Source: Nigrospora sphaerica (lineage: Eukaryota > Ascomycota > Sordariomycetes > Amphisphaeriales > Apiosporaceae). From it: a stretch of 64,000 nucleotides of DNA. Position 1 is the first letter of the stretch; each line of letters opens with the position of its first letter. The notes beneath the pieces are model-generated. The model had not been told where the DNA came from, searched no databases, and saw only the letters and a list, made by a program, of their open reading frames with translations. Made by a program: the position numbers and the translations under genes. Positions 26,885 to 51,954 of this stretch are shown in pieces. The DNA is taken from contig JAGVVL010000017.1 of NCBI GenBank assembly GCA_018287875.1, positions 3,472,001 through 3,536,000 of the forward strand, written 5' to 3'.

Positions 26885-27636
26885 TATATCGAAGACAAGA
26901 TAGGCGTCTGAACCCTAAGTCAGATGCGTTCTGTCCAATGGTTAACGCATATAGGTAAGCGGTACTCACACCAGTTGGAGACATTTACAGGCACCCCTTG
27001 TAACGCATTTATTTCCATGACGGAAATGAAATTTTGCACTTGCAGCTTCATCAAACCCTCAAATCGGCGCATTGCACTGTTCGTGAAGAGGTACCACAGC
27101 GCCGGTCGTTGGCGAAGATGTGCAGCGTTCAGGGCAAGGCTCACACTCGTCCCTCCGTCGATTGCGCCTACCGCCCCGAGGAATATAGGACTTTTCTCCA
27201 TGTTCAAGCCACCTTTCTGTCGTTGCCTTTAGCTAACATCCCAAAAGTGGATTGAATGTGGGGAGACTTACTCTCAAACGATAGATGTCTTGGCGGGCGC
27301 CGGTGCTAAGAAAACTGATCTCATTGGGAGACACACGAACCTCAGGGCCATATTTCTCATGCAATGTTTGGTAGTAGACATGCTGGTCACCCATTACCAG
27401 AGCCAATGCCGCAAGCACCTCGGTGAGGTTGTTGATCCAGGGACCAGGGATCGAGCGAAGACGGTGAAATCGCCGTTTCCAGAAGATCTGGGCGACGCCG
27501 GTCACGGCGGCCTTAGTGCGCTCAGCATGAAAGGCAATAAACGACCACTATTGGAAATTTTACTCATCATCACGGCGATTACTAAAATCAAGGCAGCATC
27601 GTCCTCCATAATTGCAACGAGGAAAAGTGTCAACAT
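26885..27636 (-). pseudogene. cytochrome P450, 5' half, cut by inversion
   Basis: Minus-strand exons: up to 27272 (with RSIPGPWINNL, the proline-rich hinge, and YGPEVRVSPNEIS), then 27216-26970 and 26907-26885. The introns (27217-27271 and 26908-26969) have GTAAGT and GTGAGT donors. Exon 2 carries EKSPIFLGAVGAIDGG and NSAMRRFEGLMKLQVQ, typical of fungal trichothecene-type P450s. Coding ends at the transposon with VFDI. The missing remainder, beginning MGDLCFAEPFG, starts at 51955 on the plus strand. The N-terminal membrane anchor is unclear: an ATG at 27634-27636 needs a very short intron or a frameshift to reach the conserved frame. Confidence 0.88.
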
Positions 27637-28299
27637 GTCGGTGAATATGGATGTCAGTGTCTCAAAATTTGTATGTTGTGCGTGTGCGGCCTAAATTCCT
27701 GAACGTGCCGGCCAGTATACGACAGGAATGGTTCAAAACGTGTGGGTACTTGGCGGCCTCTGGACATAAGAAGCTTTTGCGACATTTGTTTCGCGAAGCG
27801 TGAAGCGGAGGACAACCGATTGCTGCCAAGCGGAGCGGGGGAAGTCGGCGGTGATTGTGATCAGTGGCAGAAAGCTCGTTACAACTTGCTTACACCCGGG
27901 AAATTACTGATACTGCACCCTTAAGCATATATTCGTATCCGAGGCCGCTGGCACATTCTTTGAAAGATGCTTGGACGCATGTGAGGAGAGAGATTGAATG
28001 GTAGCCCGTAATGTGCTCAAATGCCCTCACCACGACGTGTGTGGAGGTCTCCTTGCAGCGATGGTGCAACTCGCTTGTAACTGACTCGGTGCCGAAACAG
28101 GAAGTCAAGCTCCTAATGGATTAGGCTCCGCGACGGAATTAAAGCTTTTTTTTGTTGGTCCATCCGATCCTCGGGCGTGCATTAGTGGAAAGGGGCTTTC
28201 AAGGCCGCCAAAATAAACATGAGCGATTTCTTTGCATGTGAGAATCATATCATGCTCTCATACTCATATCATTTCAACGGGCCACGCAACGACCCAAAC
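27637..28299. promoter_or_regulatory. divergent intergenic region, P450 5' half / methyltransferase
   Basis: About 660 bp between the start of the split P450 (-) and the methyltransferase (+). Small ORFs here have no recognisable product. It is presumed to hold both promoters; no motif stood out. Confidence 0.35.
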
Positions 28300-29136
28300 A
28301 TGGCTGATACTAAGGAACTTGCCCAGACTTATACCACAGTCAACAACACACAGTATGACGCCGGTCTCTTCCTCCTGAAAGAACTCAGACTAGAAAGCGG
28401 CATGGGCGTCCTGGACGTCGGCTGCGGGCCTGGCAACATCACGTCCTACCTGGCCAACGTGGTCGGCGAGTCTGGGGAGGTCGTCGGCATCGACCCCAGT
28501 GCCGAGCGCATCACCCTGGCGCGGGAGAAGACAGTGACGATTGCCAACAGCGGCGGCCCGGGGACGTGCATCGCGTTCCACGTGGGTGGCGCCGAGGACC
28601 TCTCGCGCTTCGCGACGGCCAGCTTCGACGCTGTATACTGCAACTCGACGCTGCACTGGGTGGCGGACCAGGCAGGCGCGCTGCGCGAGTTCGCGCGTGT
28701 GCTCCGCCCCGGCGGTCGGCTCGGTGTCTCGGGTCAGTCGGGCGACTTCGCCGCCGCGCACGAGACTATCCGGGCAGCTGTGCTCGGCCGCACGCCGTAC
28801 AACGCCTACAACCACGATGTCGGAGCGCCCCACTTTCTCAAGCAGCTGGACATGGCCACGCTCCTGGACGCCGCCGGCTTCGGAACCCGACGCTTCACCA
28901 TCAACACCATCTACAAGTCAGTCGCCAACGGGGACGAGATGGTTTCGTGGCTGGAGAGCAGCTCCTCTGGGGGCACGTACGGAGGGATTCCGGTCGACAT
29001 GCGGCCGGAGGCTCGCAGGGAGATGGTGAGGGAGTGGGACAAGCTTGCCACAGAAGAAGGAATTACGATGCAGCTAGACCTGCTCGTCACTGTGGCTACA
29101 AAGCCCCTCATCATAGCTACCAAGGTAGTTGCCTAA
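28300..29136 (+). CDS. class I SAM-dependent methyltransferase
   Basis: An intronless protein of 278 residues from the ATG at 28300 (MADTKELAQTY). An in-frame ATG at 28219 would add 27 residues of no evident homology. Motif I is VLDVGCGPGNIT, the acidic strand-2 residue follows in VVGIDPSAE, and the later motifs read FDAVYCNSTLHWV and RVLRPGGRLGVSG. This is the UbiE/arsenite-methyltransferase-like fold acting on small molecules in the cytosol. The acceptor cannot be predicted. It is divergent from the P450 and near opine-dehydrogenase-like and MFS genes, so a role in one small-molecule pathway is plausible. The gene is intact and GC-rich, without RIP signs. Confidence 0.88.
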   Translation: MADTKELAQTYTTVNNTQYDAGLFLLKELRLESGMGVLDVGCGPGNITSYLANVVGESGEVVGIDPSAERITLAREKTVTIANSGGPGTCIAFHVGGAEDLSRFATASFDAVYCNSTLHWVADQAGALREFARVLRPGGRLGVSGQSGDFAAAHETIRAAVLGRTPYNAYNHDVGAPHFLKQLDMATLLDAAGFGTRRFTINTIYKSVANGDEMVSWLESSSSGGTYGGIPVDMRPEARREMVREWDKLATEEGITMQLDLLVTVATKPLIIATKVVA

Positions 29137-29476: not shown

Positions 29477-29743
29477 GCACCCATATTAATACTCAATATG
29501 ACGCACTTCACCAGGCCCGCTATTGTACGTACCGGCTCCGTTTATATGCAGCGCTAGCGACCGTTTGAAGCGCCCTGTCAGGTGCATTCCTCTACAACTG
29601 GTGAACTGGAGCCGAAATTCCAGGGAAGTAACCCGTTTTTAAACGGCAGTATCATCTTATTGCTATACACGCTGGATACTGGTACGATACATCAGGTTTT
29701 TTTTTATGAAGCCGCGGGCACATGTGCTTTTGTTGTTCATCCA

Positions 29744-30690
29744 ATGGAGCCGAATCGCACAACTCTGCCCTCTACCACTGTTGCACCTGACGATGGCGCA
29801 GCCAGTAGTGCAACCACTCCTGTTTGGTGGGAGGAGCCTGAGGAGGAGGATCCTGCAAACCCCCTAAATTGGCACCAGAGGAAAAATGGGCCAACATACT
29901 GACCATCTCCGTTCTCGGCTTCCTCGTGTAAGTTGCAGAGCTATCATACGCCTGAGATATACTAACCTGTATATTTCGTCTTATCTCACGGCGGGGTCGA
30001 CTTTTAGAAAGAGTATCTTCCGCCCGATCAAGATGCTGCTCTGTTGCCCCATCGTCACCATCATGTGCACTTATGTTGCCATTCACTACGGTACTCTCTA
30101 TCTCCTCTTCTACACGTACTCTTTCGTGTTCCAGGAGGTGTACGACTTCTCGACCATAGGTTCTGGCTTGGTGTTTGTTGCCGGAGGCCTGGGAACGTTA
30201 GCAGGGCTCCTGTACATCGGCTACTTCAGCGATCGCAACGTCCAGAGCCTTATTGCGTCGGGGAAGCCCGTCCTGCCTGAAGTTCGACTGTCTCTCGTCA
30301 TCAAACTGCCGGGGGCCTTGTCGTTCCCGTTCGGTTTCTTTATCTTCGGTTGGAGCACTGAGGCGCGCCTCCACTGGATCGTGCCCCAGATCGGGACCGC
30401 CATTACTGGGTTCGGTTCCATCCTGAATTTTGTGGCCGTGCAGACCTACCTGATCGATACTTTTGAGGGTCATGCTGCTAGCGTCGTAGGTGCCAATGCT
30501 GTGCTACGGGGTCTCTCTTGGGCCTTGCTTCCACTAGGGGGGTTGGGTCTGTACAATTTGCTGGGATGGGGGTGGGGGAATAGTATATTGGGGTTTGTGG
30601 CACTGCTGTTTACACCATTACCTTAGATAATTGCTTCACGGGGCCCGAGACTTCGGGAGATGAAAAGCAATAAGATCAACTTATAATCTA
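29744..30690 (+). pseudogene. MFS transporter, internally deleted and frameshifted
   Basis: The N-terminus MEPNRTTLPSTTVAPDDG and VWWEEPEEEDPANPLNW is typical of DHA1-type fungal drug/polyamine transporters. A one-base loss in an A run near 29882 moves the next segment (WANILTISVLGFLV, TM1) to another frame. After about 100 bp the sequence resumes at the central loop (FRKSIFRPIKMLLC, near 30003). It runs through TM7-12 to 30626, so about five membrane segments (TM2-TM6) are missing. The end has TAG where Trp is expected (FTPLP-stop). Originally it would have exported a small molecule at the plasma membrane; it lies between methyltransferase and opine-dehydrogenase-like genes. Confidence 0.8.
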
Positions 30691-31028: not shown

Positions 31029-32162
31029 CTATAGCCGGCTTTCATGTTGAGTGATAAACGGGCTCAATCTTGAAATCAACTCTTCCCGCGGCAGTTTATC
31101 CAAGTTCAACTTCCTCAGATTTCTGCCCGTTTCCGTGAAGTTCTGCCCCGTCGCCATCTCGGCTAAAAGTATGATGGCGGCAATAGGCGAGGCATCGATA
31201 CCCAGCGCCTCTGCCAGTGCACACCACGGCACCAGCAGGTCTGGCACATCCTCTGCGACGTTGCGGTGGGCGGCGAAGGCGGTGGGAGCGTGCAGGCGAT
31301 TGTGAGGCGGTGACTGGCGCGCCAGTGAGACGAGGTCGGGGAAGGCTTGCCCGTAGCACGCGTTGGAGACGGCGAGGGCTGAGGGGAGTTGCAGGCCTAT
31401 TGCAGCTCCGACGGCGACGCGCACACCGTCGACTGCTGTCATGGCGCGCGCCACAGCCGATGTCAGGCCATCATGGTACAGCAGGAAGTCGCCCCCGGTG
31501 CTTTCAATCCGGCCCGCGTTCATAAGCATCATGATCGGGTGGAAGACACCATTGATGTTGGCCAAGCACGCCTCAACCACGTTTTGGCACCACCGCAGCG
31601 TTATGCCGGCTGGGAAACAATCTTGCACCACCTCACGGAGCCGCCACACTGCTGCAGCTGACGCCGCCGTCTCGTCGTCGGAGGGGCTGTGCAGTGGCGC
31701 GACTAGGATGGATTTCTTGCGGCCCAGGACGTGTAGGCGACCCTGCTCCATCCGACATGAGTACGGTGAGATGTTGGCCTCTAAGATGTTTCCCACTTCC
31801 ATGCTGGCATGCTTGACGAAAGAAACAAGGTTGCCGGGGATGGCGACCAGCATGTGCTGACGAAGGTCGTATGCCTCCAATTCCCTCAGAATTGTTTCCT
31901 GACCGGTCGACGGCACCGTGAGGAATATGACGCGCGAAAAGGTGATAACCTCGGACATGTCTGTTGTCACGGGGATATCTAGGAAGCCTTCCATGATTCC
32001 GCTTATCCAGAGGCCGTTGTTTTCTCTCACCTCGTCCGCGTGCCGCGTATGGGTGGGGTGAGAATACAACAGGACGTCCCTCCCCTGCTGGACGAAGTCT
32101 GCTGCCAGGGCGAAACCGGCGGGTCCCGCGCCGATAATAGATACGTGTTGATGAAGCTCCAT
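31029..32162 (-). CDS. opine dehydrogenase-like NAD(P)-dependent oxidoreductase
   Basis: An intronless 377-residue protein. The start at 32162 (MELHQHVSIIGAGPAGFALA) places the dinucleotide-binding GxGxxG near the N-terminus; the open frame extends 70 codons upstream without conserved sequence. After the Rossmann domain (to about residue 170) comes the helical octopine-dehydrogenase domain, seen in NINGVFHPIMMLMNAGRIE and LLYHDGLTSAVARAMTAVD. This family joins an amino acid to an alpha-keto acid by reductive amination (octopine, nopaline, staphylopine and relatives). The catalytic His expected ahead of the NxxxHP segment is present (FHP). It is divergent from a metalloreductase 783 bp away. 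Substrates unknown; an NADP-binding relative with another reaction is possible. Confidence 0.82.
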   Translation of the reverse strand: MELHQHVSIIGAGPAGFALAADFVQQGRDVLLYSHPTHTRHADEVRENNGLWISGIMEGFLDIPVTTDMSEVITFSRVIFLTVPSTGQETILRELEAYDLRQHMLVAIPGNLVSFVKHASMEVGNILEANISPYSCRMEQGRLHVLGRKKSILVAPLHSPSDDETAASAAAVWRLREVVQDCFPAGITLRWCQNVVEACLANINGVFHPIMMLMNAGRIESTGGDFLLYHDGLTSAVARAMTAVDGVRVAVGAAIGLQLPSALAVSNACYGQAFPDLVSLARQSPPHNRLHAPTAFAAHRNVAEDVPDLLVPWCALAEALGIDASPIAAIILLAEMATGQNFTETGRNLRKLNLDKLPREELISRLSPFITQHESRL

Positions 32163-32945
32163 GTCGTCCCAAGGCCCAACTATTGATGAATTTTCAAAAT
32201 AGGAGACCGTGCGAAGGGGAGTCAGGAGCCGGCTTTTATCCGACCCTTTCTCGTGGAGAAAAGGAAACGATGAGATGAACTCTAAACAATTATATTGTCC
32301 GATAAAAGCCCATTGCACGACACTCGTCACTTGCAGTCTATATACTAGGTACGAGAGGGTGAAACTTCCCACCCCAGGGCTTCTAACTCATTGGGGAATA
32401 TCTCTCTCCAAAACCCTGCGAGATATTAGTGTGTAACAGTGCCACCCGGTAGTAAAATGGGGACCAGAATGGAGGACCCGTGCAAAGGCGACAGGGCCAA
32501 GTGAGTATGCAGAGTCGTCGCGTTAGTAATCCATGAACGGCGGTTCACCTCACTGGCGTGGCACTTGGTTGACCCACCCGAAGCGAACGGCGTGCTCTAA
32601 CTTGCGCAAACTTGCTCAAACATCCGCATCCATAATAAGCGATGGAACAGGGGTCCGGTTGAATCCATTCAGTACCAGATGATGAGCCTTGCGGTAGCTG
32701 AGCTGGTTGCAATTAGCCACCGAATCATCTTGCCACGGTCTGTTTTGAGAGTGTTCCAGGCGTTGGTAAAAAGCTTATTAGCAATCGTTTTTATCGACCC
32801 CGCTGCATGCACGGTGGCCTCGCCTCCGTAACCCCAAAGGCATCCATCTTCACCTTCTTATTCTATCAAGTTCAGGTGGTACCACTTGGCACTGAGCTAT
32901 CCGTTTTCACTCCGTTGCTTCGATATTCGAGCAAACCGGCTAACC
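32163..32945. promoter_or_regulatory. shared divergent promoter, opine-DH-like / metalloreductase
   Basis: 783 bp between two intact divergent genes. TATATA lies near 32339, on the opine-dehydrogenase side. No gene is supported within. Co-regulation, for example by metal status, is an inference from layout. Confidence 0.35.
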
Positions 32946-35393
32946 ATGCCTCGCGCCTTCGCCATGTTCTCCTTTATTCCTTGGCTACAGGTCTTCCTTG
33001 TGGTCTCAATCTCGTCTTCGCCCGAGACCATGTTTGCCCTCGCATCGTCAGGCATCGTCGGTTACGGCATAAATTTGTTCCCAGACCTCTGCTGCCAAGC
33101 ATGCTACGACTCGCTTTCCAGCCTCCATCTCAGCTGCACTACCGTTGATGATAGTGGCTCCATGTCTCCCATGGACATGGACATGGGAAGCATGGACATG
33201 CCCATGGCCATGACGAGCGACGAGTGCTATGCGTCCAACGTCCCATGGCTTCAGACGATGGCGTACTGTATCCAGCATAGCTGCAATGCCGTTGGGTACC
33301 CCACGGACAAGCAAGCCGAGTGCTTTGCTCAGCGAGCCATTATAGATGCTTTCCAGCCTTCTTTTAACGCCAGCCTTCCGCCCTCACCCCCGACGGAGGA
33401 GTTAGCGGACGATACCACATGGCTAAACAGTACCAGCCTCGTGAATGACGCTCTCTATCGGTCTACCTACGGGACATATCAGGAGTTCGAGAGGGAGGAG
33501 ATATTGCATTCAACATACTCGTGAGCGTCCCACCCCCCTCCTCCGAGAGTCGTCAACTGTTTCACCTTCTCAATCTAACCACCTCAGCGCGTAGCCTGAT
33601 TGTTGTTTCTACCGTCATTGGCGTGTGCATCATTTACGGCGCCTGGGCGCAGATAGAAAGTGCCTTTCCCAGACTCCTCCAACCGTTCCAGAACAGCTCC
33701 ATCTTGGCGCGGACTCGGCAGTACCTTGTCCTTCCTCCCATCCTAGGCACCCGCCGCCTCGAACCTCTCCCAGGTCAAATAGGGTACGCCCCAAGAAGAA
33801 TTGCCGGCATTTTCATCGCGGTTTACGTTATTCTCAATGTCGTGTTGTGTTCGGTTTCCTTTCGCAGTTTTCAGCCTAACCTTTACTTTCTTTCGACTGG
33901 ATTCGAATTGTGCGAATATGTTGGTAACCGGACTGGCGTTCTCAGCTTTGTGAACCTGAGCGTTGCCATAATGTTCGCTGGACGAAACAATCTTCTCATC
34001 TCTTTCACAGGATGGAGTCAGAGCACATTTCTCATACTACACCGCTGGGCGGCACGGATTGCCACCTTGCAGGCCATCGTACACTCCATTGTCTACACAC
34101 TGGCGTACTTTCAACCTGGGTATGATGGCGCCGCAGCATACGCCGCCAAAGCAACCGAAGCATTTTATGTAAGTTCGTATCAGTCCCTTTATGCCAGCGG
34201 ACTCAACCACTGACGAGTTGTAGCAATGGGGAATCGTTGCCACCATCACTATGTGTTTGGGACTCAGCTTCGCCATTCTTCCCTTCCGTGTTCGATTCTA
34301 TGAGATCTTTCTCGCAGTGCATATTGTCATGGCCCTGCTTTGCCTCGTGGGTTGTTGGTACCACATCGTACCCCACTTCGGCTACAATTATGGCTATCAA
34401 GTTTGGCTCTACATCGCGTTCGCTTTCTGGTCCGCCGACAGACTGGCCCGAATCGGTCGGGTGGCCTTTTTCAACCAGCTTGGCCGGTCAAAGGCGGTAG
34501 TCGAGTCGATCCCAGGCACCAATATCATGCAGCTGACTTTGTTCCCGCGCACGATTGGGGGCTGTGGCCCGGGGACACACACCTTTCTCTACTTTCCTGG
34601 CTTGGGAAAGAGTTGGGAAAGTCATCCTTTTACGATTGCTGGCTGGAGCTCACCGAAACGCGGGTCCACGGAGACTCCGACCAATGTTACGTTTGCTAAA
34701 ACGCCACCGACTAAGCAACCGGAGCCTACGATGAGGGACGCATCACACGACAGCGACGCTCACTTTCCCCCGTCCATCCGCATTCTCGCCCGGTCACATG
34801 CTGGTGCAACCAACGCGCTCCACAAGCAGCTTCTCGCCTCGTCCTCGCGTACGCGCACAGAAGTTTCGGTCTACAACGAGGGCCCTTACGCCGGCCATCG
34901 AACAATGCTCAAGCCGCTATTCACTACCGACACAGTTCTCTGCATCGTAGGAGGAATTGGTATCACCAGCGCTCTTGGATTTCTCCAATCCTATGCTGAA
35001 TCAAAGGTGACCGATCAGAGTCTGATGAAGAAAACAACACGATTCATTGTATCCTGGACCGCACGAGAGGCGCCCCTGATCCAATATGTCCGAAACAACT
35101 ACTTCGTGGACTTTGGGGATGTTGAGTACAGACTTTGGTGTACTGGTACCGCTGATGGTACTGAATTGTCCGCAATGGCATCGGAAAGTGTGGCTGGTAG
35201 TAAAGACGAAACTATCAATAGTGGGAGAATGGACATCCGCACAGTACTGAGAGACAGCCTTGAAGTCGGGGTTCACACTACAGTGATTTGTTGTGGACCA
35301 GGTGGTATGGCTGACGACGTTGCAACGCACGTTGCTCAGTATTTGGGACAGGGGTTCAATTTAAATCTTATAGAGGATCTTTATACTTGGTAG
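32946..35393 (+). CDS. ferric/cupric reductase (FRE family) with Met-rich ectodomain
   Basis: Exons 32946-33520, 33595-34168 and 34224-35393 code for 772 residues. A signal peptide (MPRAFAMFSFIPWLQVFLVV) leads a Cys-rich extracellular domain containing a Met-rich run from residue 73 (MSPMDMDMGSMDMPMAM). The ferric reductase transmembrane core has two His pairs with 14-residue spacing (HRW...VH near 340/354 and HIV...WYH near 416/430) for two b-type hemes. FAD-binding HPFTIAGW is near 517 and NADPH-binding GGIGITSALG near 626, with CCGPGGM near 739. It would reduce Fe(III) or Cu(II) outside the cell with cytosolic NADPH. Introns are phase 2 (GTGAGC...GCGTAG) and phase 0 (GTAAGT...TTGTAG), chosen because only they keep frame. 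Confidence 0.88.
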
Positions 35394-35904: not shown

Positions 35905-36120
35905 TGTCACGGTTCAAGGAACGAAGGATCTGTTGATGACCCAAAGGTTCTATTGAGATGCGAAAACTACAGGTGAAGAGGAAAAGAAGAGGAGGAACAG
36001 GCTCCTCTCAGTCACTGTTTGGCAGGAATATATCCAGCCAGCGGCGGTACGTACCGCCAGGCAGCGGTAAGTCGTCCATGCGTTGCCATGCCCTTGTACC
36101 TATGTACCCATGCCGTAACA
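35905..36120 (-). repeat. 3' LTR of chromovirus copy B
   Basis: On the plus strand it reads TGTCACGGTTCAAGG to CATGCCGTAACA. It contains GGCGGTACGTACCGCC at 36043-36058. Confidence 0.93.
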
Positions 36121-39100
36121 TTACCCCCCCTCAAGAAATGAAACTTGTCCGCAAGTTTCGGTCACTTCTTCCGGGCAATTCTCTTTCTCGTTCGGTTCGT
36201 CGAAGCCGGAGAGTTATCGTCGGCGTGAGGTGGGTCAATCTTATCGTCAGCTACGGCGTCAAGCTATAAAGCCAGTCGCTTCGGCGGTCCTGCGTTGTCT
36301 GGATACTCCTCGTGGTATTCCTAGAGAAGTGTGGCGCTGTTCTTGAATGACTCCGCGTTGTACCACGTTGCGTCCGGGTCCCAACCCTTCCAGCGCACCT
36401 AGTATTGAAGTTTCCTATAGTGCAGTCGAGAGGACAGCACTCGGTCTACCTCCCATTCTTCGTCCAACGAAGGATCCATGATTTCGCCCTCCGGATTCTC
36501 GGCCTGTTGTCCCGGGAGAGGGTCGTCTTAGAATCGCCGAAGGCGATTAGCGTGAAACACGTTCGTGCCCTTCCAGTCTGGCGGCGTGTCAAGTTTGTAG
36601 GAGTGTCCTCTTATCCCCTTAATAGTGTAATATTGCTGCGTTAAAAGGAACATTAAGGCGTCGCCAGGTTAGTCCGTCGTCTATATCCGTTTAAGGATAA
36701 CCACCCTATCCCCGACCTTAAAGTCTAACTCGCGTCGCGACTTATTAGCCTGGTTATATATACAGCGTTAGGATAAGGTAGCCTATTATCGTGCCGTTTT
36801 TATATATTAGTGGAGTATCTTTATAATCTTTTATATATCTTATCGTTCGAGACGTTCTATTATCGGAAGCTTGCTAATATCTTAAGTCTAGTCAGCTTTA
36901 GAATATAGCAGCGGTATAAGGAAACCACGCTCCACTTTATAAGGAGACAGTCCTATCGAGTCCTAGGGCAGGCTAGCTTAGATAGCGTCCAAAGCTGGAA
37001 TCACTGACGACCAGTTGTCTTAAAAGTGTGATAAGTAAGGCAGAATCCGTTGCTGGATAGCCTGGTTTATACACTCCACTTGCCCTTGTGACTGGGAGTA
37101 GCCGGAGGATCCCAGTTTTTAGGTGATACCCAGCAGCTTAAAGACTTCATCGGTGAAGTGAGAGACGAATTGGGGTCTATAGTCGCTCCCAATCTGCTAT
37201 GGTAGTCCAAAGACGTGATATAGACTATAGTAGTATATCTTAGTAACGTCTTTAGCTGTCACTAATCGGGTATAGGGAACACACTAACTCCTCTTACTTA
37301 ATAAGCAAACTATAATAAGGAGGTTATTAAACCCCTTTCGATCTTTAAGCATAGTTTTAAAGTCTATCTGAATCGACTGCTATAAGCGAAGCGGTATCGG
37401 AAGCGGATAGAGAAATCCTAGTGTCTTATCCCGGGGGACTTTAAACGATCGGCACACTCGACAGTTAACCACGAAATAGTCGACGTCTTTGGATAATCCT
37501 AGCCACCAGTACTGGCTCTGTATTAGCTTACGGAGCTTGTTATATCCCAGGTACGCAGATATTAAGCGCGAATAGAAATCTTCTAAGATGTGCGTCCTCA
37601 AATTGTCTTATTCGGGGACCACTAGTTTGCCGTTCCTTAGGAGGGTTCCGTTAGAGAGGGTCTAGGTAATGCCGTCGGTCGGCTCTAATGTAGTCTTTTC
37701 CCGAAACGGCTGGAGAAGGGGGTCGGTGCAGTTAAGTTCGACAGCACGATATACCAGCATTGACCCAGAGAGTGGTGGCGGTGGCAGGTCGTCCTCTAAG
37801 AGGGCCACCTCACTTAAGGGTTCCACTATAGAAAGCGCTGGTATATATCCGTGTTCGCCCTCCTAGAAGATAGCCAAGTGTTGCATCGCCTTGGTTTTCT
37901 CTTTCTGTGTTTTCAGATCTTCCGTTTTCTGTAATAAAGCGTCGGCCGCGGCATTCTGCGTTCCTAGGCGGTACTTTAGCAGGCAGTGGTATTCAGCGAG
38001 GAGCTCCGCCTAGTTCGCTTATCGTAAGTTAAGATAACGTTTTTAACTAAAGTATTCTAGCGCGCTATAATCCGTCACAATCGTAAACTGTGGGCACTGA
38101 AGTCCTATAAGCTTAGCGCGCTAATACTTAAGGGCTTAGACTACAGCTAACAGTTCTTTATTATGGATGCTATAATTAAGCTCCGAACCTTGGAGGGTCT
38201 TTAAGTAAAAGGCGACAGGGTGCCAGTTATTAGAAGCGTCATCCTTCTTTTACGATAGGACTCCAGTAATCACTTTATCGGAAGCATCTGTCTTTAATTG
38301 TATATCGTTCTCGTAGCCGAAATATACGAGGACTGGGGCCTCCAGCAGTCGTCGTTTTAAGGTATCGAAAGCTTCCTGGCACTCCTCTGTCTACTGGAAC
38401 ATCGGTAAACCTTGCTTCGTTAGGTTAGTGAGCGGTCGAGCAATCCGCCTATACTCGCGAACGAACTTGCGATAGAAATTGTAGAAGCCGAGAAATAATT
38501 GCACTCCTTTAATAGACGTCGGGGGTGCCCAGTCGCGGACAACGGACGTCTTAGTAGGATCCACGGCCACTCCTTCTGTAGAGATGATGAAGCTTAAGAA
38601 CTTCGTTTCCCGAATATAAAATTCGCACTTGTCGGTGTCGGCTTACAGTCCGGCCTCTCGGAGGCGCTGCAGGACCCTCCTCACATAGTCCTCGTGTTCT
38701 TTAACTGAATCCGAAAAAATAACGATATTGTCTAAGTATACCGAGCAGAAATTATTTAGATAGTCTATCAAGGTGTCATTTATAAAGCGCTGAAAGGTCG
38801 CGGGTCCGTTCGTTAATCCGAATAGGAGTATGTTATACTGAAAGGTGCTATAACAGGTACGGAACGCTGTTAACTCTTCTAATCCTAGCGCCATTCGGAT
38901 CCGGTGGGATACTTATTAGATGTCCAGCTTTATAAAGACCTTTGCCTTAAAAATCCGGGCTATAGTCTCCTCGATTAAGGGAAGTGGGTGTCGGTCTTTT
39001 TAAGTGACAGAGTTGAGCTTTCTGAAGTCTATATAGAGGCGTAGTCCTCTATTCCCTTTAGGTACGAAGAGGATTGGTGCCGCTTAAGGCGCTTCACTTA

Positions 39101-39710
39101 GCTCGATGAATCCCTTTACTAGGTTCTTAGTCACGTACTTCCAGTATGTCTCCATTTCTTTAAGCGACATCTTCCGCAGGCCCGAGTATCCTAGGAGCTC
39201 GTCTAGCTTAGCGTCATCATTTAGGATGATCTTGTAATCGCAGGTACGATGCGGTGGTAACTTGTCGGACTCGAACTTGCTAAATATATTTAAATACTCG
39301 TGGTATTGCTTTAGTACCACTTATAATGCTTTTTTGCGAAGAGTGTCCGAGTCCGAGGGTAACACGTCCCCTTGTGACGTTTGCTTCTCGAGGATAATCT
39401 TGTCTATCGCGTGGAGGCTAGTGACGTGCCAATCTTGAGGGTTTCGGCGGTATGACATTTCTATCGCCGGTGCGGAGATAAAAGCGATATCGATGCGTTC
39501 TTTAAAACTTCCTGCCGAGCTCCGGCGTCGGATAAAGGGTCCTTGAGAGTTGCGTTCCATCGGGGACGACGGTGGCCTCGGTGGCGGTGTTGGCAACAGG
39601 GGCGGCGCGTCGGTTAGTTCAGCCAACGCGCGTTTTATTTTCGCGATGCCTTCATTGTTTCGTTGTCCTTGTGTACGAGTGGCCATTGGTTGTGTTAGGA
39701 TTTTCTTATA

Positions 39711-41571
39711 AGTTCGAGGACCCCCATTTCGGCCCCCCCCACATTTCGGCCCCCCAAAAACCAGCCACCGAATTTCCAGCCCCTCGACTTCTTTTTGAAT
39801 TTACTTTAGCAAATTTGCTTTAATCTATCCGAAACTTGGTATCTGCATTCAATTTCTTATTATGAAGCAATATTCAGAAGCCGAACTTCAACAAGCCCTA
39901 ACTGCTATTGCAGCTAGGGGTGGAATCAAGCAGACCTCTCGAGATTACGGCATACCGAAGTCAACACTGCAAAGCCGAATTAAAGGCCATCAACCTAGGC
40001 CCGAAGCCTTTGCAGACCAACAGAGGCTCAGACCAGTCCAGGAAGAGTTACTTACGAATTGGATCCTGACCTAAGCTGCCCTAGGGCTTCCACCTTCCCA
40101 TGCCCAAGTTAAGGAGTTCGCCGAACGTATCCTCCGGGCTCAGGGCGACAGCGAGCCACTTGGAAAGAGATGGCTGCAGGCCTTCCTACGCAGGAACCCA
40201 GCCGTACGGGTCCAGAAGAGCCGGTCTATCGACTCGCAGCGTGTTAATGGCGCCTTAATCGAGGTAATTCGCTTATAGTTCCGATATCTTCAGCTGCCGG
40301 AGGTCCAGAGGGTGAAGCCGGCTAACCGCCATAACATGGATGAAGCAGGACTCCTAGAAGGTGCTGGATCGAATGGTCTAGTACTTGGAGGTTCCGAAAA
40401 ACGCTCAGTCCGAAAGAAATAGCCTGGTTCTCGTGCTTGGATGTCATTCATTGAATGCATCTCTGCTTAAGGCCACGCCCTGCCCCCATTAGTCATTTTC
40501 AAGGGCAAAACGGTTCAACAGCAATGGTTCCCGGTCGATTTAAGCCAATTCAGAGGCTGGCAGTTCACTGCAACCGAAAACGGATGGATCACAGACGAAA
40601 CAGCGCTCGAGTGGCTCGAGAAAGTCTTTATCCCGAATACCACCCCCGAGGACCCTTCCGAGTACCGCCTACTTATTATGGACGGCCATGGAAGCCATAC
40701 AACGACTGATTTTATGTTCCAATGCTTCTCGCACCGGATTTATCTTCTGTTTTTGCCCCCTCATACCTCTCATGTCCTCCAACCTCTCGATTTAGCCGTT
40801 TTCAGTTCTTTAAAATCGGCATACCGGAAAGAGCTCGGATATCTAACCCAGTTAACGGACTCTACAGTAGTTGGCAAGCGAAATTTCCTTACCTGCTATC
40901 AGAAGGCTCGTTTAGCCAGCCTTACTAGCCAGAATATCCGGAATGGATGGAAAGCAGCTGGTCTCTAGCCAGTGAGTATAGCTAAACCGCTTCTAAGCCG
41001 GAATTTAATTCAAAATACACACCAAACAACACCCGACACAGTAAATTTAAAGGAATCCCACTCGAAAAGGGTCCTCTTAACACCTCCAACAAGATCCCAT
41101 ACTTCTATAGTGGTTTGGTCAACTCTAAAGAAGACGTCGGACTTTAAGGACCAAGTACAGCTTTCGAACCAGCTAGCGAAACACTCAACCACACAACGAC
41201 TACTCTTCCGGAAGATCCAAAAGGCCTTTGATGAGAAGAACGTCCAATTGGCTACTGCTCAAAGGCAAATTCAGGCCCTCGAAGCTAGGATTGACACTAT
41301 CAGACCAAGGAAGAGGAAGAAGGTGGATTTGAGCCCTAATTCGAAGTTCGCGAACATTGAAGACATCCACCGAGCTCAGTTAGCGGTCGGGGAGGTTAAA
41401 AATGGTCTAGATGAAGAGAGCGATAGCGAAAGCCTAAGTGAGGCCAGTTCCTGCATTAGAGTTGCTATTAATTAAGGCTGCATCTTAACTTCTATTGATA
41501 TGGCTGGTTTTAAGCGTGGTGTTTTTAGGGGGCCGAAATGTGGGGGGGGCCGAAATGGGGGTCCTCGAACT
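39711..41571 (+). mobile_element. Fot/pogo-like DNA transposon, copy 3
   Basis: 1861 bp with TA at 39709-39710 and 41572-41573. Both ends begin AGTTCGAGGACCCCCATTTC, and each end holds two ATTTCGGCC-type submotifs. Removing it with one TA rejoins chromovirus copy B across the region matching 24120-24140 of copy A. This copy has the fewest mutations of the four. Confidence 0.94.
39862..41475 (+). pseudogene. Fot-like transposase, copy 3 (least damaged)
   Basis: The frame MKQYSEAELQQAL to a TAA at 41475 is about 537 codons, with roughly five nonsense codons. The DDE acids are visible in NMDEAG, IMDGHGS and LQPLDLAVF. The N-terminal 50 residues (HTH) differ clearly from copies 1, 2 and 4, while the rest is nearly the same. 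That fits a separate subfamily with its own terminal motif. A charged C-terminal tail (PRKRKKVDL) is likely nuclear targeting. Not functional as it stands. Confidence 0.9.
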
Positions 41572-43554
41572 TATCGAATTATCGGTGGCGACTTCTCGCA
41601 ATCGGTGTTGGTCGCATATAGACCGCGGATGACGGGAGAATCCAGACGTCGTGATCTTCGGCCTGCCAGGCGTCGCTGGTCTTCGATGGCCATCTTTCGC
41701 TCACGATGTTGGGCGTCTACATCGAAGGTAGGGTTCTACAGAAGCTGTCCGGCCTGGTCTATAACGACATAATGTTCCATGCGCTGGGGGGTCCATTCCT
41801 CGGGGAAGAGAAGACAACGGCGACGAATATCCAGTGTTACATTGTGTGTTTCCAACTATTTGCGACCGACTATCACGTCGTGGCGTATATTAAGGATTAG
41901 AAAATGGGTTCGGGCAGTAAGACGGCTCTGGACTTAGAAGTGTCCTAGCAGGGCAATGTCTACCAGTTGCGATAAGGTACCGTCGAATCCGCCGACAGGT
42001 TAAGGATAAAAGTCACGAATAGTAAGGAGGTGTAGGTATTAGAGGAGCCTTTAAACGAAGGCTATACTTATAAACAGGTATCCACTTACTCTGGTATCGA
42101 CAAGGGCATAGGTAAAGAGAGACGATCCATTATAAGCTATAGTATAAGGGAAGGTAAACGGTCTTCCCCCTAAGTGCTTGCTTAAAAAACTAGAGGATCG
42201 CTTATCCCGCGTGTTCTCAATATCGACGACTTCCCTTAAATCGGAGTCCACTTATCTAAGGGTATTTAGTTTTTCGAATCCGTGATATCTTCGACTCGGT
42301 CGGAGTTAAGAATCTCGGTTGTAAGACTATCGGCGTTCAAATAAGGACAGGGAGCTCCTATCTACTGGCTAACTAAAGCGTTAATACAGTTTAAGCGGTC
42401 GACATTGACTCGCTTTTCCGGGTAGTTATTGGCATAGTGGCCAGGCTTTTCACAGTTAAGATAGAGTCGGTTCTTTAAAAGGCGTCGGAGCTTATCGGGT
42501 CTATATTAACGTGCCAGGGTTAAGGTAATGTAACGCTTCTCCGATGGCTTGGCAGACTCCGATTGGTCGACAGCGGGGATAGGGGTTCGGCGAGTGCCGC
42601 CATAGTTTCCGCGGTTTATACGACGTCCAGGGTCGTCACTCTTAGCAGACTGGAGGACCAGTGTAATCTAGGCGGCCTCGGTTGCAAACGCGTCGAATTT
42701 AATGCTACTCTTAATATAGGAGGAGGCCAGTGCCGTTTGCAACTTTATTGTAAGCTTTTAGTTGAAGAGGCACTTTTAATCCGTTTTAACTTAGCTAGTT
42801 TCGGTGGCAAGTCGAAGGAACTTGTTCTTAAAGACCTGGAAATCTATTCCCGCGGCCATATAAAGGTTCTTAAATTCTAAAGAGGCAGCCTCTATTTAGT
42901 TGGGGTCATGGTACTGTTACTAAAGATGCGCTATCAAGGCCTCGTACAATTAGATCGGAGTAGGGTGCGTCTATTGGAGGTAGGGCTGGAGATTATCGCT
43001 GGCCTCTCCGCCGAGGCGGCCTTCGATATAGGCCTGCTTAGAGAGGTCTGTAGGGAAACGGGAAACGTTCACCAGGATCTTGTTCTTAACCTAACGGAAC
43101 CAAGTCTCGAACTTGACGATATCCTTAGACTTCTGATTATAGAAAACCGGGGGGTCAGGGAGGCGCTCAACCTTTAGTTAGGAGCCCTTAACATCGGGAA
43201 GTACAGGCAGTGGTGTACCTTAGGTACTTCCTGCTGTCTGCCGGATTAAGGCAGCCATCTGCTGTTGGAGATCCTTTATCTGTCTCTCTAGCTCAAGGTG
43301 TCTATGGCGCTCTTAAACGAATCTGGACTCGGTGTCGTCAACGTCGCTGGTGTCATTCGTATCGGCGGAACCCTCACGGGTATTGTCGGGGTCATCCTTG
43401 TGAGTTTCTGTGATCCGGTGGAGGGATCCACCCTGTTTGGCCAGCATCTCAGCGGTGTGTGGGTCGCGCTTGTAGCTGCGTACCCGTCGGAATGTCTGTA
43501 GGGTTTGGGATATTGATAGAAGCCTTCCTAGGCGGATAAGGAGACCTGTAGTTG

Positions 43555-43770
43555 TGTCACGGTTCAAGGAACGAAGGATCTGTTGATGACCCAAAGGTTC
43601 TATTGAGATACGAAAACTACAGGTGAAGAGGAAAAGAAGAGGAGGAACAGGCTCCTCTCAGTCACTGTTTGGCAGGAATATATCCAGCCAGCGGCGGTAC
43701 GTACCGCCAGGCAGCGGTAAGTCCTCCATGCGTTGCCATGCCCTTGTACCTATGTACCCATGCCGTAACA
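43555..43770 (-). repeat. 5' LTR of chromovirus copy B
   Basis: Identical to the 3' LTR except at two positions (GATACG for GATGCG, and GTCCTCC for GTCGTCC). Confidence 0.93.
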
Positions 43771-43775
43771 GTGCC

Positions 43776-43912: not shown

Positions 43913-46900
43913 CTATCCTAAGACGACTATATAAGAATCCTCCTAGATAACGGAAAAGCAATATAAGCACCAGATCTAATAAATAAACCGCGGATTAAGA
44001 GACTTTATATATAATAGAGTTCATAGAGCCTTCCTTTACGATAACCATGTATAAGTAATCAACTGCCCCTCTAATCTAAACGCCTAGCCCCTCCCCGAAC
44101 TTAACGATATCTGCCACTTCCACTCTTAAAAGTGAGACTCCTTAGGGTATCCCTGATTAAGGGAATCCACCTTTATAACTCTCGGACTTAAGACTCTTAC
44201 CTAACTTAGAGCACTACCTGTATTTAAAGTTCGACAGTAATAATATCACGGCCTTCCTAGAAGACTGGGAGAGACACACTTAGCGGTTCCGTTTCTCCGA
44301 AACCGATAAGATTGCAAAGCTGATAGCTTACTATATCGGTTAAAGAACACTCTCCTAGATCCATCTAGTAATCAAGGAGTGTACTACCTAGTCGGATTTT
44401 AAGCAGCGCCTCCTTTTTAACTTTAAGATAGGGGACCTCTTACACCAGCTTCTCTTAAGCGCGAAGTTGTCGGAACTCGAATCTAGACTTAAGCTGTCAG
44501 ACTATTAAGAGATATACAACTACCTTGTCGAGCATAAGCAAGTCGCTAATACTTTGAAGGCTACATCCGCAAGATAAGGAGGTGTCATTAAATTAACACG
44601 AGAAAATCTGATTAAACGTTTACACCCGGATATCCAGCACATGCTATTTAAGAAGAACCGGCTTATAGGATATGAAGACACCTTTAAGGACATCTCGGAC
44701 TGGTTAATCAAGGAGCGCATATTTAGTAACACTTTTGATACTGATGCTACTAAAAATACGTGCTACGAAGATAATACTAAATAGGAAGAACCTTATATAA
44801 AGAGAGAGGACTGAAAAAATAACTAAGGACGACACGTATATAGACGTTAAGATAATCGACAATGCAATCGACAAGATAACTAAGAAGTTCGAAAGTCTCG
44901 GGGTTAACCGGATTTAAGCTTTAATCGACGAAAAACTAAAGCAGTTATAGCCGCCTCACTTATAAGATAACTCACAGACCTATCCCTATGTCAGCAACAT
45001 TCAGGTAAAAGAGATGATAGCAGGCGTTATCGATCGAGACTCCTTTTAACGCGGGGCACCTGGATTAGGGTTTTCCTCCTATAGGAGAGGTGGCCGAGGC
45101 GGTAAAGGCTCTTACAACCGCATCCTCCCAGATAACAGCGTCCAGTTGCATAACACGTACGGACCTGGAGACTGCTATACTTATAGTGAGCCTAGCTATA
45201 GGAGCAATCGATGCCCTATATTAGTATACTGCACCGAGTAAGGCTTCCTACACTAGGATGCTGATGCCCAGAGATACCAAGCGGGTAGACGAGGAGAAGG
45301 CCACTGGCTAGATAAGTCGATCTTAGGAGACTGCCTCTACTAAAAGAAACCAGCCATTTGGATATACCTGATAGATATCTTCTTTGATAGACTAGAATAT
45401 ATTAGCAGCAAGTGCACGCTAGGAACAAACTATTTAAGCGAGACCTAATCACTTAAGAGGATATAAACGAATTTGTAGCCTATTATAAAAAGAGGCAAAT
45501 TGTTAATTAAGGACAAGTATAACCAGCTATAATAACTGTTAACTTAGTCGAGACCTGCGAAATATCTTATTAACCAGATATTGACTTCGAATTTATATAC
45601 GTCGGGCACAACTCGGATAGTCGAGAGATCCTGCGTGTTATAGAAAGGCAAGCCGTGCCACCACGAATTGCCTCGATTAAGGAAGTTCCAGATAAAGAAA
45701 CAGTAGCTATTATAGTGAACACGGAAGAAAAGAGAGTAAGATTAGAAGATAGCAGGTACGCCCTAAAGGATGCCACTTAGCTAACAAACAGCTGGGCAAA
45801 AAGAGATAATAACGCGACCACCTTATAACTAAAGAAAAAGCTTAATTAAGATAATGTCGACAAATAGATTAAGCGAATCCTTTAAGAATTTAATAATAAG
45901 AAGTTCATAGTTACTTAGTTAAACCTGATTATAGAAGTCCTTAATTTTAGCCAAGGACTGCTAAAAGTGGCGACAGACGTTATAAATAAATATTAAGGGA
46001 TTGAAGAAATAATCGACATATGTAGGGCTTCTTAAGACCCCGACTGCATTACTATAAGGACTAGTGGAGACCTTAGGAATAGCACTACGATTAAAGGATC
46101 AGTAAAGTTTACTAATAGAGCACACCTAGCTAATGAACTACGATAAGAGTAGAGAACACGGAATATTACGAAGCGCACTAATTAAGACTCCCTATATACC
46201 GTTAACGCGACCGACTTCTTTATAAGACTAGACGAGATCAAAGCAGCGAGACCTTTAAGACGCCTTCCAGTGAGAGTCGGACCCAACAGCGATAAGACTT
46301 TAATACAAGGTCTGCTGGACACCAGAGCCGCGATTAATGTTATCGTGGACACCTACTGTAAGAAGAACAACCTCCCTTTTATGGCATCCAGCATAGTCTT
46401 AAGAGGATGGACGGCAAATTCCGCACCCACCAAGTTAATAAGGACCCTAGCCGACTACCTTTGGATTAAGAGACGTAAGATCCGGACTTCCTTTTAAGTT
46501 GTTAAAGCTAAGAATAGCAGTTATAATATAATTCTCGGCTTACCTTTTATTTACGATAGTCGTGTGGTTATATTTTATAATGTACCCGAGGGCACTCCAT
46601 TAATAGCCCAGCTTATTATAGGCAATACGAAGCTCTATATTCCAGTGATCCCCAATAAGAGGAGCGCTAATTAAGGGAATGCAACTAAAGGCGGGTCCTT
46701 AAAAGGCGCGCTACTAAGGAAGACAGCCAGACTAGTAGCGATTATAAGCTAGTAAAACCGTCTCTCTCGGCTACACGCTATATATTAGCAGAATTAGTTG
46801 TTAACACGATCACAGCTGCAGAATCACCTGATTAAGACCTTCCACAACTAGGAAAAGATAAGACAATTGTTAACAAGATCTCCGATAACGGGCTCCTACT

Positions 46901-46995
46901 CCTGCTTTAGGGGCTAAGAGATAAGTGTATAAGGGATAAGAAGGCTATAGCTAGGAACGAGGAGATGCTCTTACCCCCTCAGCTTAAACACACTT
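43913..46995 (+). pseudogene. Ty3/gypsy family D gag and protease, RIP-decayed
   Basis: After the LTR, a leader is followed by a gag-like frame with many stops (FLEDWERHT near 44250, AKLIAYYIG near 44320, NLIKRLHPDIQHMLFKKN near 44610). Next is an aspartic-protease-like segment open from 46270 to 46497, where the active-site triad is altered (GLLDTRAAINVIVD, LDTR instead of LDTG). The frame leads to the start of pol (LLPPQLKHTL) and stops at the chromovirus 3' LTR at 46996. The continuation is at 21969 reading leftward. It is the 5' half of the element whose pol lies at 18833-21969. Confidence 0.75.
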
Positions 46996-47208
46996 TATCA
47001 CGGTTTAAGGAACGAAGAATCTGTTGATGACCCAAGGGTTCTATTAAGATGCGAAAACTACAGGTGAAGAGGAAAAGAAGAGGAACAGGCTCCTCTCAGT
47101 CACTGTTTGGCAGGAATATATCCAGCCAGCGGCGGTATATACCGCCAGGCAGCGGTAAGTCGTCTATGCGTTGCCATGCCCTTATACCTATGTACCCATG
47201 CCGTAACA
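46996..47208 (-). repeat. 3' LTR of chromovirus copy C
   Basis: 213 bp. It starts TATCACGG where other copies have TGTCACGG, a RIP-type G-to-A change. A polypurine tract follows at 47209 (complement). Confidence 0.9.
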
Positions 47209-47540
47209 TTACCCCCCCTTAAGAAATGAAACTTGTCTGCAAGTTTCGGTCACTTCTTCTGGGCAATTCTCTTTCTCGTTCGGTTCGTCGAAGCCGGAGA
47301 GTTGTCGTCAGCGTAAGGTGGGTCGATCTTATCGTCAGCTGCGGCGTCAAGCTATGAAGCCAGTCGCTTCGGCGGTCCTGCGTTATCTGGATACTCCTCG
47401 TGGTATTTCTAGAGAAGTGTGGGGCTGTTCTTAAATAAAGCCGCATCGTACTACGTTGTGTCCGGGTCCCAACCTTTCCAGCGCACCTGGTATTGAAGTT
47501 TCCCATAGTGCAGTCGAGAGGACAGAACTCGGTCTACCTC

Positions 47541-47723
47541 TGATATGGCGAAGACTGGGGTGAAGGGAAAGATCATGTATTCCGTCCGCCGGCCACGAAG
47601 TGGCTGTCAGGGCAGGAAACTATCTATGGTGCGATATCCCAACTAGGTAGGTGGGGTAGCAGGACCCCTCCTTGACAAGGATACCGCACCTTATTGCTGT
47701 TTACCTACCCCCGCCACGTATCA
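47541..47723 (+). mobile_element. 183-bp solo LTR-like insertion in chromovirus C
   Basis: Copy B reads GGTCTACCTCCCATTC without a break near 36440. Here 183 bp are inserted, flanked by ACCTC on both sides (47536-47540 and 47724-47728). The insert begins TGATATGGCG and ends CGCCACGTATCA, so it has TG...CA ends with imperfect inverted termini. Size and 5-bp duplication fit a solo LTR of an element not otherwise present in the window. No coding capacity. Confidence 0.8.
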
Positions 47724-50092
47724 ACCTCCCATTCTTCGTCCAACGAAGGATCCATGATTTCGCCCTCCGGATTCTCGGCCTGTTGTCCCGGGAGAGGGTC
47801 GTCTTGAAATCGCCGAAGGTAATCAGCGTGAAACACGGTTGTGCCCTTCCAGTCTGGCGGCGTGTCGAGTTCGTAGGAGTGTCCTCTTATCCCCTTGATA
47901 GTGTAACATTGCTGCGTTAAGGGAAACGTCAGGGCGTCGCCAGGTTAGTCCGTCGTTTATATCCGCTTAAGGATAACCACCCTATCCCCGACCTTGAAGT
48001 CTGGCTTACGTCGCGACTTATTAGCCTAGTTATATATACGGCGTTAGGATAAGGTAGCCTATTATTATGCCGCTTCTGTGTATTAGTAGAGTGTCTTCAT
48101 AATCTTTTATATATCTTATTATCCGAGACGCTCTATTATCGGAAGCTTGCTAATATCTTAGGTTTAGTCAGCTTTAGAATATAGCAGCGGTATAAGGAAA
48201 CCACGCTCCACTTTATAAGGAGACAGTCCTATCGAATCCTAAGGCAGGCTAGCCTAGACAGCGTCTAAAGCTGGAATCACTGACGACCAGTTGTCTTGGA
48301 AGTGTGATAAGTAAGGCAGAATCCGTTGCTAGATAGCCTGGTTTATACGCTCCACTTGCCCTTGTGACTGGGAGTGGCCGGAGGATCCCAGTTTCCAGGT
48401 GATGCCCAGCAGCTTGGAGACTTTATCGGTGAAGTGGGAGACGAATTGGGGTCCATAGTCGCTCCCAATCTGCTATAGTAGTCTAAAGACGCAATATAGA
48501 CTATAATAGTATATCTTAGCAATGTCTTTAGCTGTCACTAATTGGGTGCAGGGAACGCACTAACTCCTCTTACTTAATAAGTAAACTATAACGAAGAGGT
48601 TATCAAACCCCTTTCGATCTTTAAGCATGGTCTTAAAGTCCATTTAAATTGACTACTATAAGCGAAGCGGTATCGGAAGGGGATAAAGAAATCCTGGCGT
48701 CTTATCTTAGGGGACTTTAAATAATCGGCACACTCGACAGTTGGCTACGAAACGGTTAACATCTTTGGATAATCCTAGCCACCAGTACTAGCTCTGCACT
48801 AGCTTATAGAGCTTGTTGCGTCCCAGGTGTGCTGATGTTAAGCGCGAATAGAAGTCTTCTAAGATGTGCGTCCTCAGATTGTCTTATTTGGGGACCACCA
48901 GCTTACCCTCCCTTAGGAGAGTTCCGTTATAGAGGGTCTAGGTAATGCCGTCAGCCGGCTCCAACGTGGTCTTGTCCCGAAACGGCTAGAGAAGGGGGTC
49001 GGTGCGGTTGAGTTCGACGGCCCGATGTACCAGCATTGACCCAGAGAGTGGTGGCGGTGGCAGGTCGTCCTCTAAGAGGGCCACCTCACTTAAGGGTTCC
49101 ACCATGGAAAGCGCTGGTATGTATCCGTGTTCGCCCTCCTGGAAGATAGCTAGGTGTCGCATCGCCTCGGTTTTCTCTTTCTGTGTTTTCAGGTCTTCCG
49201 TTTTCCGTGATAAAGCGTCGGCTGCAGTATTCTGCGTTCCTGGGCGGTACTTTAGCAGGCAGTGGTATTCGGTAAGGAGCTCCGCCTAGTTCGCTTATTG
49301 TAAGTTAAGATAACGTTTCTGGTTAAAGTATTCCAGCGCGCTGTGGTCCGTTATAATCGTGAACTGTGGGCGCTAAAGTCCCACGAGCTCAGCGTGCCAA
49401 TGCTTAAGGGCTTAGACTATAGCCAACAGTTCTTTATTATGGATGCTGTAATTAAGCTCCGAACCTTGAAGGGTCTCTAAGTAAAAGGCGACGGGGTGCC
49501 AGTTATTAGAAGCGTCATCCTTCTTTTATAATAGGACTCCGGTAATCACTCTATCGGAAGCATCTGTCTTTAATCGTATATCGTTCTCGTAGCCGAAATA
49601 TACGAGGACTAGGGCTTCCAGCAGTCGTCGTTTTAAGGTATCGAAAGCTTCCTGGCACTCCTCTGTTTACTGGAACGTCGGTAAACCTTGCTTCGTTAGG
49701 TTAGTGAGCGGTCGAGTGATCCGCCTATACTCGCGAACGAACTTGCGATAGAAATTGTAGAAGCCGAGAAATGATTGCACTCCTTTAATAGACGTCGGGG
49801 GTGCCCAGTCGCGGACGACGGACGTCTTAGTAGGATCCACGGCCACTCCTTCTGTAGAGATGATGAAGCTTAAGAACTTCGTTTCCCGAATACAAAAATT
49901 CGCACTTGTCGGTGTCGGCTTACAGTCCGGCCTCTCGGAGGCGCTGCAGGACCCTCCTCATATAGTCCTCGTGTTCTTTAACTGAATCCGAAAAAATAAC
50001 GATATTGTCTAAGTATACCGGGTAGAAATTATTTAGATAGTCTATTAAGGTGTCATTTATAAAGCGCTGAAAAGTCGCGGGTCCGTTCGTTA

Positions 50093-51952: not shown

Positions 51953-51954
51953 TA

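Follow-up and report, generated by a model that had tools for sequence, protein, structure and literature searches.

A 23-kb inversion in Nigrospora sphaerica probably produced by recombination between two opposed Fot-type transposons

The Drosophila buzzatii inversion 2z3 was traced by Delprat et al. in 2009 to ectopic recombination between copies of Galileo (PMC2775673), and in Leptosphaeria maculans lineages 30 inversions with a median size of 9.5 kb were described in 2014, 70% of them bordered by transposable elements in the isolates analysed (PMC4210507). We examined a 64,000-nucleotide stretch of the Nigrospora sphaerica genome, referred to here as the window, in which 23 kb lie between two Fot-type transposons. 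As in the account of 2z3 used here, two opposed copies of one DNA transposon occupy the breakpoints and the flanks have been exchanged, with a site of exchange mapped inside the element to 141 bp in 2z3 and, putatively, to 632 bp here (PMC2775673). According to the same account, 2z3 was compared with non-inverted chromosomes, revealing exchanged 7-bp duplications, and a maximum chi-square test as well as phylogeny backed its chimerism, whereas at our locus copies of the elements, together with homologous proteins, serve to deduce the ancestral order, and chimerism is putative (PMC2775673). The locus also resembles those of L. maculans in being a small intrachromosomal inversion bordered by transposable elements in an ascomycete, although the inversions in that study, as it presents them, were inferred from genome comparison without an exchange mapped inside the elements (PMC4210507). 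The mechanism is long known, and this locus is a clean new instance rather than a new kind. We found no report of it in the literature on fungal inversions bordered by transposable elements, which does not prove that there is none.

Fot1/pogo-type DNA transposons of filamentous fungi target TA, measure about 1.86 kb, and have terminal repeats and the domains DDE_1 and HTH_Tnp_Tc5. The transposon in the window shares these features (the DDE_1 transposase and CENP-B/Tc5-type HTH domains being seen in copy 2, PF03184 at E 1.7e-32 and PF03221 at E 3.9e-12, on two of three ORF pieces), but copies 2 and 4 have stops in every frame. These two copies look inactive, and they probably took part in the inversion merely as repeated sequence. 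They are homologous, lie at opposite breakpoints and are inverted relative to each other, and by BLAST they are 97.9% identical, with 36 mismatches over 1860 aligned sites and near-identical ends. The flanks of each combine sequence from two loci. A sequence-only reading of the window had described such a near-identical pair with two-locus flanks, and its coordinates hold. TA stands on either side of copies 1-4 and on both sides of 13 of the 18 Fot loci listed (the other five matches lack one end or both), and these duplications cannot show whether copies 2 and 4 exchanged sequence.

Three contiguity tests, on gypsy-type element A, on its host element D and on a P450 gene, were made without joining the pieces. 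At the site equivalent to the split in A (25023/50092), the related element B is unbroken, as are all 33 of the other matching places in the genome. All of these places run through the one point at which only A is split, which counts against chance. Specifically, B aligns to 47721-50093 plus 25024-24131, the two alignments sharing 4 bases at B 38813-38816 (BLAST), and so spans both pieces, in agreement with the proposal that reversal rejoins the pol region of this putative chromovirus. The predicted AAGTG duplications are also present at the two outer ends of A. The LTRs of A (21970-22180 matching 47208-46998) differ by seven mismatches, and an LTR pair was likewise found in B (BLAST). Because repeat-induced mutation breaks the clock, LTR divergence is unsuited to dating. 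The lengths proposed for the two elements hold only after subtraction: A measures 3054 + 3097 = 6151 bp and comes to the proposed ~5.96 kb once a dispersed repeat of ~184 bp (about 47541-47724) is left out, while B, described as intact at 6.0 kb, measures 7866 bp including the Fot copy inserted in it and ~6.0 kb without that copy.

The domain content of both elements fits Ty3/gypsy, with LTRs in each and, in the order seen in B, reverse transcriptase before integrase. In reading direction, B contains RVT_1 (38646-38912) and then Integrase_H2C2 (37383-37607). In A, the piece beginning at the break matches RVT_1 positions 124-182, the six other pieces gave no Pfam match to reverse transcriptase or integrase, and integrase was found in none of the seven. 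Pfam found no chromodomain among the seven pieces of A and six of B, whose frames mutation has broken.

The D sequences flanking A lie on opposite strands of the window, and they adjoin one another in all 22 D copies that were paired, out of 45 matches, with a gap of 5-18 bp in 17 of the 22. AAGTG is present once in each of the two other D copies that were read. This agrees with the proposal that the reversal rejoins D in one orientation.

The third test concerns the P450 gene, the halves of which were expected to be joined by the same reversal. Its pieces, which end near 26885 on the minus strand and run from 51955 on the plus strand, are collinear on single homologues in 11 of 12 chosen cases. 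Both C-terminal pieces match all 12 homologues, the N-terminal piece 26923-27228 matches 11, always upstream of the C-terminal pieces in the same protein, and the piece 27236-27547 matches one, again upstream. Only the longer C-terminal piece matches the P450 model (PF00067, E 1.8e-55, positions 227-445 of 462); the other three gave no match to it, yet all three match P450 homologues. A PDB sequence search with one N-terminal piece returned nothing. Each part of the P450 gene occurs at full length in a single genomic location, the further matches of the C-side probe (at least 39) being to a ~100-bp repeat at its end, and no second, uninverted version of the locus turned up when the same genome was searched. 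The nearest named relatives of the C-terminal piece are from Colletotrichum sublineola (66%) and, as a fragment, Pyricularia grisea (73%); for the neighbouring subtilase they are Apiospora proteins.

Together, the flanks of the two transposons have been exchanged at both breakpoints, and A, D and the P450 gene were each formerly contiguous. The sequence-only reading had counted five inverted host genes and one split gene; the split P450 gene stands, but the interval contains four recognisable genes plus the N-terminal part of P450. An ORF at 29558-29902 lies upstream of the MFS transporter piece, and another at 32832-33521, before the ferric-reductase-like gene, has no Pfam match.

Table 1. 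Features of the inverted locus, in window coordinates
Feature	Position	Strand	Evidence
Older element D, part left of A	18066..21969		Collinear with L070 and L071, one strand
Target-site duplication AAGTG, left of A	21965..21969	+	
Gypsy-type retroelement A, 5' part (LTR to mid reverse transcriptase)	21970..25023	+	LTR match; contiguous homologues
Fot/pogo-type transposon copy 2, left breakpoint	25024..26884	+	TA flanks; 30-bp terminal repeat with one mismatch; PF03184 DDE_1 and PF03221 on ORF pieces
Identical tract in copy 2, putative exchange site	25954..26585	+	0 of 36 differences here
Inverted interval, 23,208 bp	26885..50092		Flank tests on A, D and P450
P450 gene, N-terminal part, severed from rest	26885..27547	-	Homologue matches upstream of C-terminal part
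Methyltransferase gene	28189..29136	+	PF08241, E 4.7e-25
MFS transporter gene piece	29871..30623	+	PF07690 positions 192-347
Octopine-dehydrogenase-like gene	31032..32387	-	PF02317, E 2e-44
Ferric-reductase-like gene	33449..35390	+	PF01794, PF08022 and PF08030 on two pieces
Gypsy-type element B, relative of A	35905..43770	-	Unbroken where A is split
Fot copy 3, within B	39711..41571	+	BLAST match
Older element D, part beyond other end of A	43913..46995		Collinear with L071, opposite strand (with L070 as far as 44330)
Target-site duplication AAGTG, other side of A	46991..46995	-	
Gypsy-type retroelement A, 3' part (mid reverse transcriptase to LTR)	46996..50092	-	RVT_1 in piece starting at break
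Fot/pogo-type transposon copy 4, right breakpoint	50093..51952	-	Inverted relative to copy 2, with 98% identity
Identical tract in copy 4, putative exchange site	50391..51022	-	0 of 36 differences here
P450 gene, C-terminal part	51953..52929	+	PF00067 on longer piece; two open pieces, separated by one in-frame stop

The differences between copies 2 and 4 are unevenly placed: 30 fall in element positions 1-930, none in 931-1562 and six in 1563-1861. Within the middle tract, 15 sites separate each of the two from the nearest third copy. Its 632 bp make it the longest stretch of identity in any of the 465 copy pairs (the next is 410), and it is also, narrowly, the most significant. Using close copies, we found 57 consecutive concordant variable columns for this pair, a run that 0 of 100,000 shuffles reach. 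A test on the spacing of differences ranks the pair first of 465, with P about 1.2e-5 uncorrected and about 0.006 once corrected for 465 pairs, and the runner-up, L007 with L014 (161 bp, 1.6e-5), is close behind. Five other pairs fall below 1e-4 in the spacing test, with tracts of 77-161 bp, indicating exchange or shared mutation elsewhere in the Fot family. A coarser test, which used every variable column across 31 copies, places the pair only tenth of 465; the tests on close copies and on spacing are the stronger ones. The lack of differences in the middle tract suggests exchange between exactly copies 2 and 4 at this site.

We conclude, with a probability of roughly 0.88, that non-allelic homologous recombination between the two inverted transposons reversed the 23 kb after most of the repeat-induced mutation. 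The ectopic recombination put forward in the sequence-only reading is supported by the flank tests, and the identity tract in mid-element points to DNA exchange. In the likely course of events, one Fot-type transposon would have entered A, itself already inside D, and a second would have entered the P450 gene ~23 kb away in the opposite orientation. The two copies would then have diverged, chiefly through C-to-T and G-to-A substitutions like those of repeat-induced mutation, before pairing within one chromatid. A crossover inside their bodies, most likely in the 632-bp stretch in the second half, would have reversed the interval and swapped the flanks, leaving no difference between the copies at the point where the exchange was resolved. 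We infer that this tract marks the crossover rather than a separate conversion; reciprocal chimerism would call for the parental copies. That the tract reflects an unrelated gene conversion in a genuine inversion, with the crossover possibly elsewhere, is less likely but keeps some weight: short common tracts do occur in other pairs, as the five below 1e-4 illustrate, but the longest in the family is shared by the very two copies that border the inversion. Continuing recombination between the opposed copies, with the 23-kb segment, near a chromosome end, flipping to and fro in populations and repeated flipping keeping the tract spotless, is quite improbable.

Two independent insertions without inversion were considered and rejected, because A, D and P450 would each need to have been split by coincidence. 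An uninverted chromosome, misassembled by a crossing between the 1.86-kb near-identical copies, is very unlikely. The 632-bp tract, the longest identical stretch, is where a short-read assembler would go astray, and five of 12 contig ends inspected have no telomere-type unit, so the assembly is not complete. However, 33 contigs for 51.6 Mb, up to 9.3 Mb long, suggest long reads that would easily span 1.9 kb, the contig in question itself begins in a telomere-repeat array, and the 36 differences provide anchors on either side of the tract. We give hardly any credence to aberrant transposition, in which the ends of two copies are used together in place of homologous recombination. Both breakpoints do lie at transposon ends, and these ends are near-identical. 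However, a hybrid element at a new site leaves one breakpoint that was never an insertion site, whereas here both look like former insertion sites, and the inner junctions carry no extra footprint bases. The hybrid-insertion model, as outlined for Galileo, also predicts identical flanking copies (PMC2775673), whereas copies 2 and 4 differ at 36 sites, all outside one tract, although later mutation could add such differences.

With recombination between copies 2 and 4 as the preferred reading, element copies elsewhere in the genome stand in as the uninverted reference, and the breakpoints, the former insertion sites and the probable exchange tract of a natural inversion are all legible in one assembly. 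The locus ties the disruption of a P450 gene to transposon recombination, and it suggests that copies already marked by repeat-induced mutation can recombine with each other.

We interrogated the two Fot/pogo-type transposons bordering the inverted interval, copies 2 and 4. Both are full length and flanked by TA on either side, lie in opposed orientation and differ at 36 sites and by one indel. The terminal repeat of copy 2 measures 30 bp and contains a single mismatch, and pieces of this copy match DDE_1 and HTH_Tnp_Tc5. Since their best frames contain 12 and 18 stops, respectively, neither copy is likely to be active. A crossover between such opposed copies on one chromatid would invert the interval and exchange its flanks, and this expectation matches what is observed.

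Coordinates of features (window positions)
Feature	Positions	Strand
Inverted interval	26885-50092	
Copy 2	25024-26884	+
Copy 4	50093-51952	-
Middle tract, copy 2 / copy 4	25954-26585 / 50391-51022	
P450 N part	26885-27547	-
P450 C part	51953-52929	+
Element A, two parts	21970-25023; 46996-50092	
Element B	35905-43770	-
Element D, two parts	18066-21969; 43913-46995	
D search pieces, first; second	21300-21964; 46300-46990	
MITE-like repeat	47541-47724	
Inverted repeat pair	14119-14688 / 16852-17412	
AT-rich tracts	12000-22000; 44000-47000	
MFS transporter	29558-30626	
Dispersed repeat past P450	about 53096-53200	

The two parts of the split P450 gene were compared with homologues as separate pieces, never joined, using 12 proteins picked from 120 listed among 419 found. 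The C pieces (residues 109-171 and 173-433 on homologue P0002) match in all 12 and the main N piece (residues 1-85) in 11, the exception being P0003, which begins downstream of it; on P0006 this match is partial. A more N-terminal piece matches on P0006 only, the remaining homologues beginning later. Piece order is constant across all homologues used, bearing out the sequence-only reading that the halves were formerly one gene. An intron plausibly lies upstream of the break on the N side. The C part has one in-frame stop, so, apart from having been cut, the gene either was already defective or has become so. Past the P450 lies a dispersed repeat of at least about 100 bp, found in at least 39 other places; the right coordinate given for it, 53200, is that of the probe end.

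Element A, a gypsy-type retroelement, is likewise split, its parts ending at 25023 and 50092, and its relative B is unbroken at the corresponding point. Using 631 bp of B spanning this point, we found 36 matches in the genome: B itself, A's two pieces, which cover query 1-317 and 314-628, and 33 further places, every one of which crosses positions 314-317 (one by only nine bases). A reverse-transcriptase ORF of B passes through the break point (RVT_1 80-182), and in A the piece whose start is the break aligns to RVT_1 from residue 124 onward. B and the 33 uninterrupted matches uphold the proposal that the pol of A was continuous before the inversion. A MITE-like dispersed repeat of ~184 bp within A, present in at least 39 other places at 95-99% identity, accounts for most of A's excess length over B.

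Separate genome searches with pieces of element D, the older host of A, from left of A and past its other end gave 45 and 23 non-self matches, respectively. Pairing was attempted for the 22 of the 45 first-piece matches that reach at least 82% identity, and in all 22 the second piece lies close by on the opposite strand, at 5-18 bp in 17, 69 bp in four and 658 bp in one. One of the 23 second-piece matches is without a partner. Two D copies, compared over ~10 kb, are collinear with the window from 18066/18068 to 21972 and then from 46995 downwards, and both contain AAGTG once at A's site. Reversal rejoins D, and AAGTG duplications flank the rejoined A, as had been claimed. Two AT-rich tracts (38-42% GC), composed at least in part of D, have the pattern that repeat-induced mutation would leave. 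The window also contains an inverted repeat pair of ~570 bp (91% identity).

Searching the genome for the transposon yielded 207 candidates, and 40 of them were scored. In an alignment of 41 copies, copies 2 and 4 differ at 30 sites in positions 1-930, at none in 931-1562 and at 6 in 1563-1861; the corresponding counts for copy 2 against its nearest third copy, L002, are 19, 15 and 2. Against all four nearest copies, copies 2 and 4 have eight variants in common in the middle tract, and one and one outside. Their 57-column concordant run, among 154 variable columns in the six closest copies, was reached in 0 of 100,000 shuffles; the lowest count among 14 control pairs was 87 of 5000 (L002 with L005). 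A spacing test on 465 pairs of 31 near-full copies ranks copies 2 and 4 first (P ~1.2e-5 uncorrected, ~0.006 over 465 pairs) and L007 with L014 second (P 1.6e-5, 161 bp); P is below 1e-4 in five other pairs. Their 632-bp identical tract is the longest (next, 410), and a cruder all-column test ranks them only tenth. With the four nearest copies as reference, C-to-T or G-to-A changes make up 34 of the 36 differences, 22 of these falling in CpA/TpG, the pattern expected of repeat-induced mutation; because the middle tract is spotless, the exchange was probably later. Two truncated copies, L018 (contig C32) and L019 (C13), are identical over 1328 bp with the same 12 bases on both sides, and a gap-free comparison of the entire stretches retrieved for them shows 473 differences in 4328 positions, possibly a segmental duplication.

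The genome comprises 51.6 Mb in 33 contigs; the window occupies positions 3472001-3536000 of C9 (3,644,384 bp), leaving ~108 kb between it and the contig end. Among 12 contig ends inspected, telomere-type arrays occur at three (C9 start, 15 units; C5, 9 and 15), one or two units at four (C9 end, both C1 ends, C33 end) and none at five; C9 end, C1 start and C33 end have identical terminal sequence. For the neighbouring subtilase, the closest relatives bearing a name come from Apiospora (A. kogelbergensis, 76%; an unnamed source, 88%), which suggests that the fungus belongs in or close to this genus. The MFS transporter matches only the C-terminal half of its Pfam model (192-347 of 347; one piece scanned), and the gene may be without its N-terminal half.

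The flank tests of A, D and the P450 fit an inversion of the interval by ectopic recombination between the opposed Fot-like copies. We regard the inversion as real, clear and mediated by transposons, a conclusion of high though incomplete certainty. In Drosophila, marks of such inversions described by Delprat et al. (PMC2775673) include opposed copies, exchanged duplications and chimeric elements. Opposite copies are found here too, whereas exchange is shown by flanks rather than duplications, and chimerism is suggested, not proven, by the identity tract. A 2014 study of two L. maculans lineages describes 30 inversions, 70% of them TE-bordered in the isolates analysed (PMC4210507), indicating that such inversions are not rare in ascomycetes. 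The mechanism is already known.
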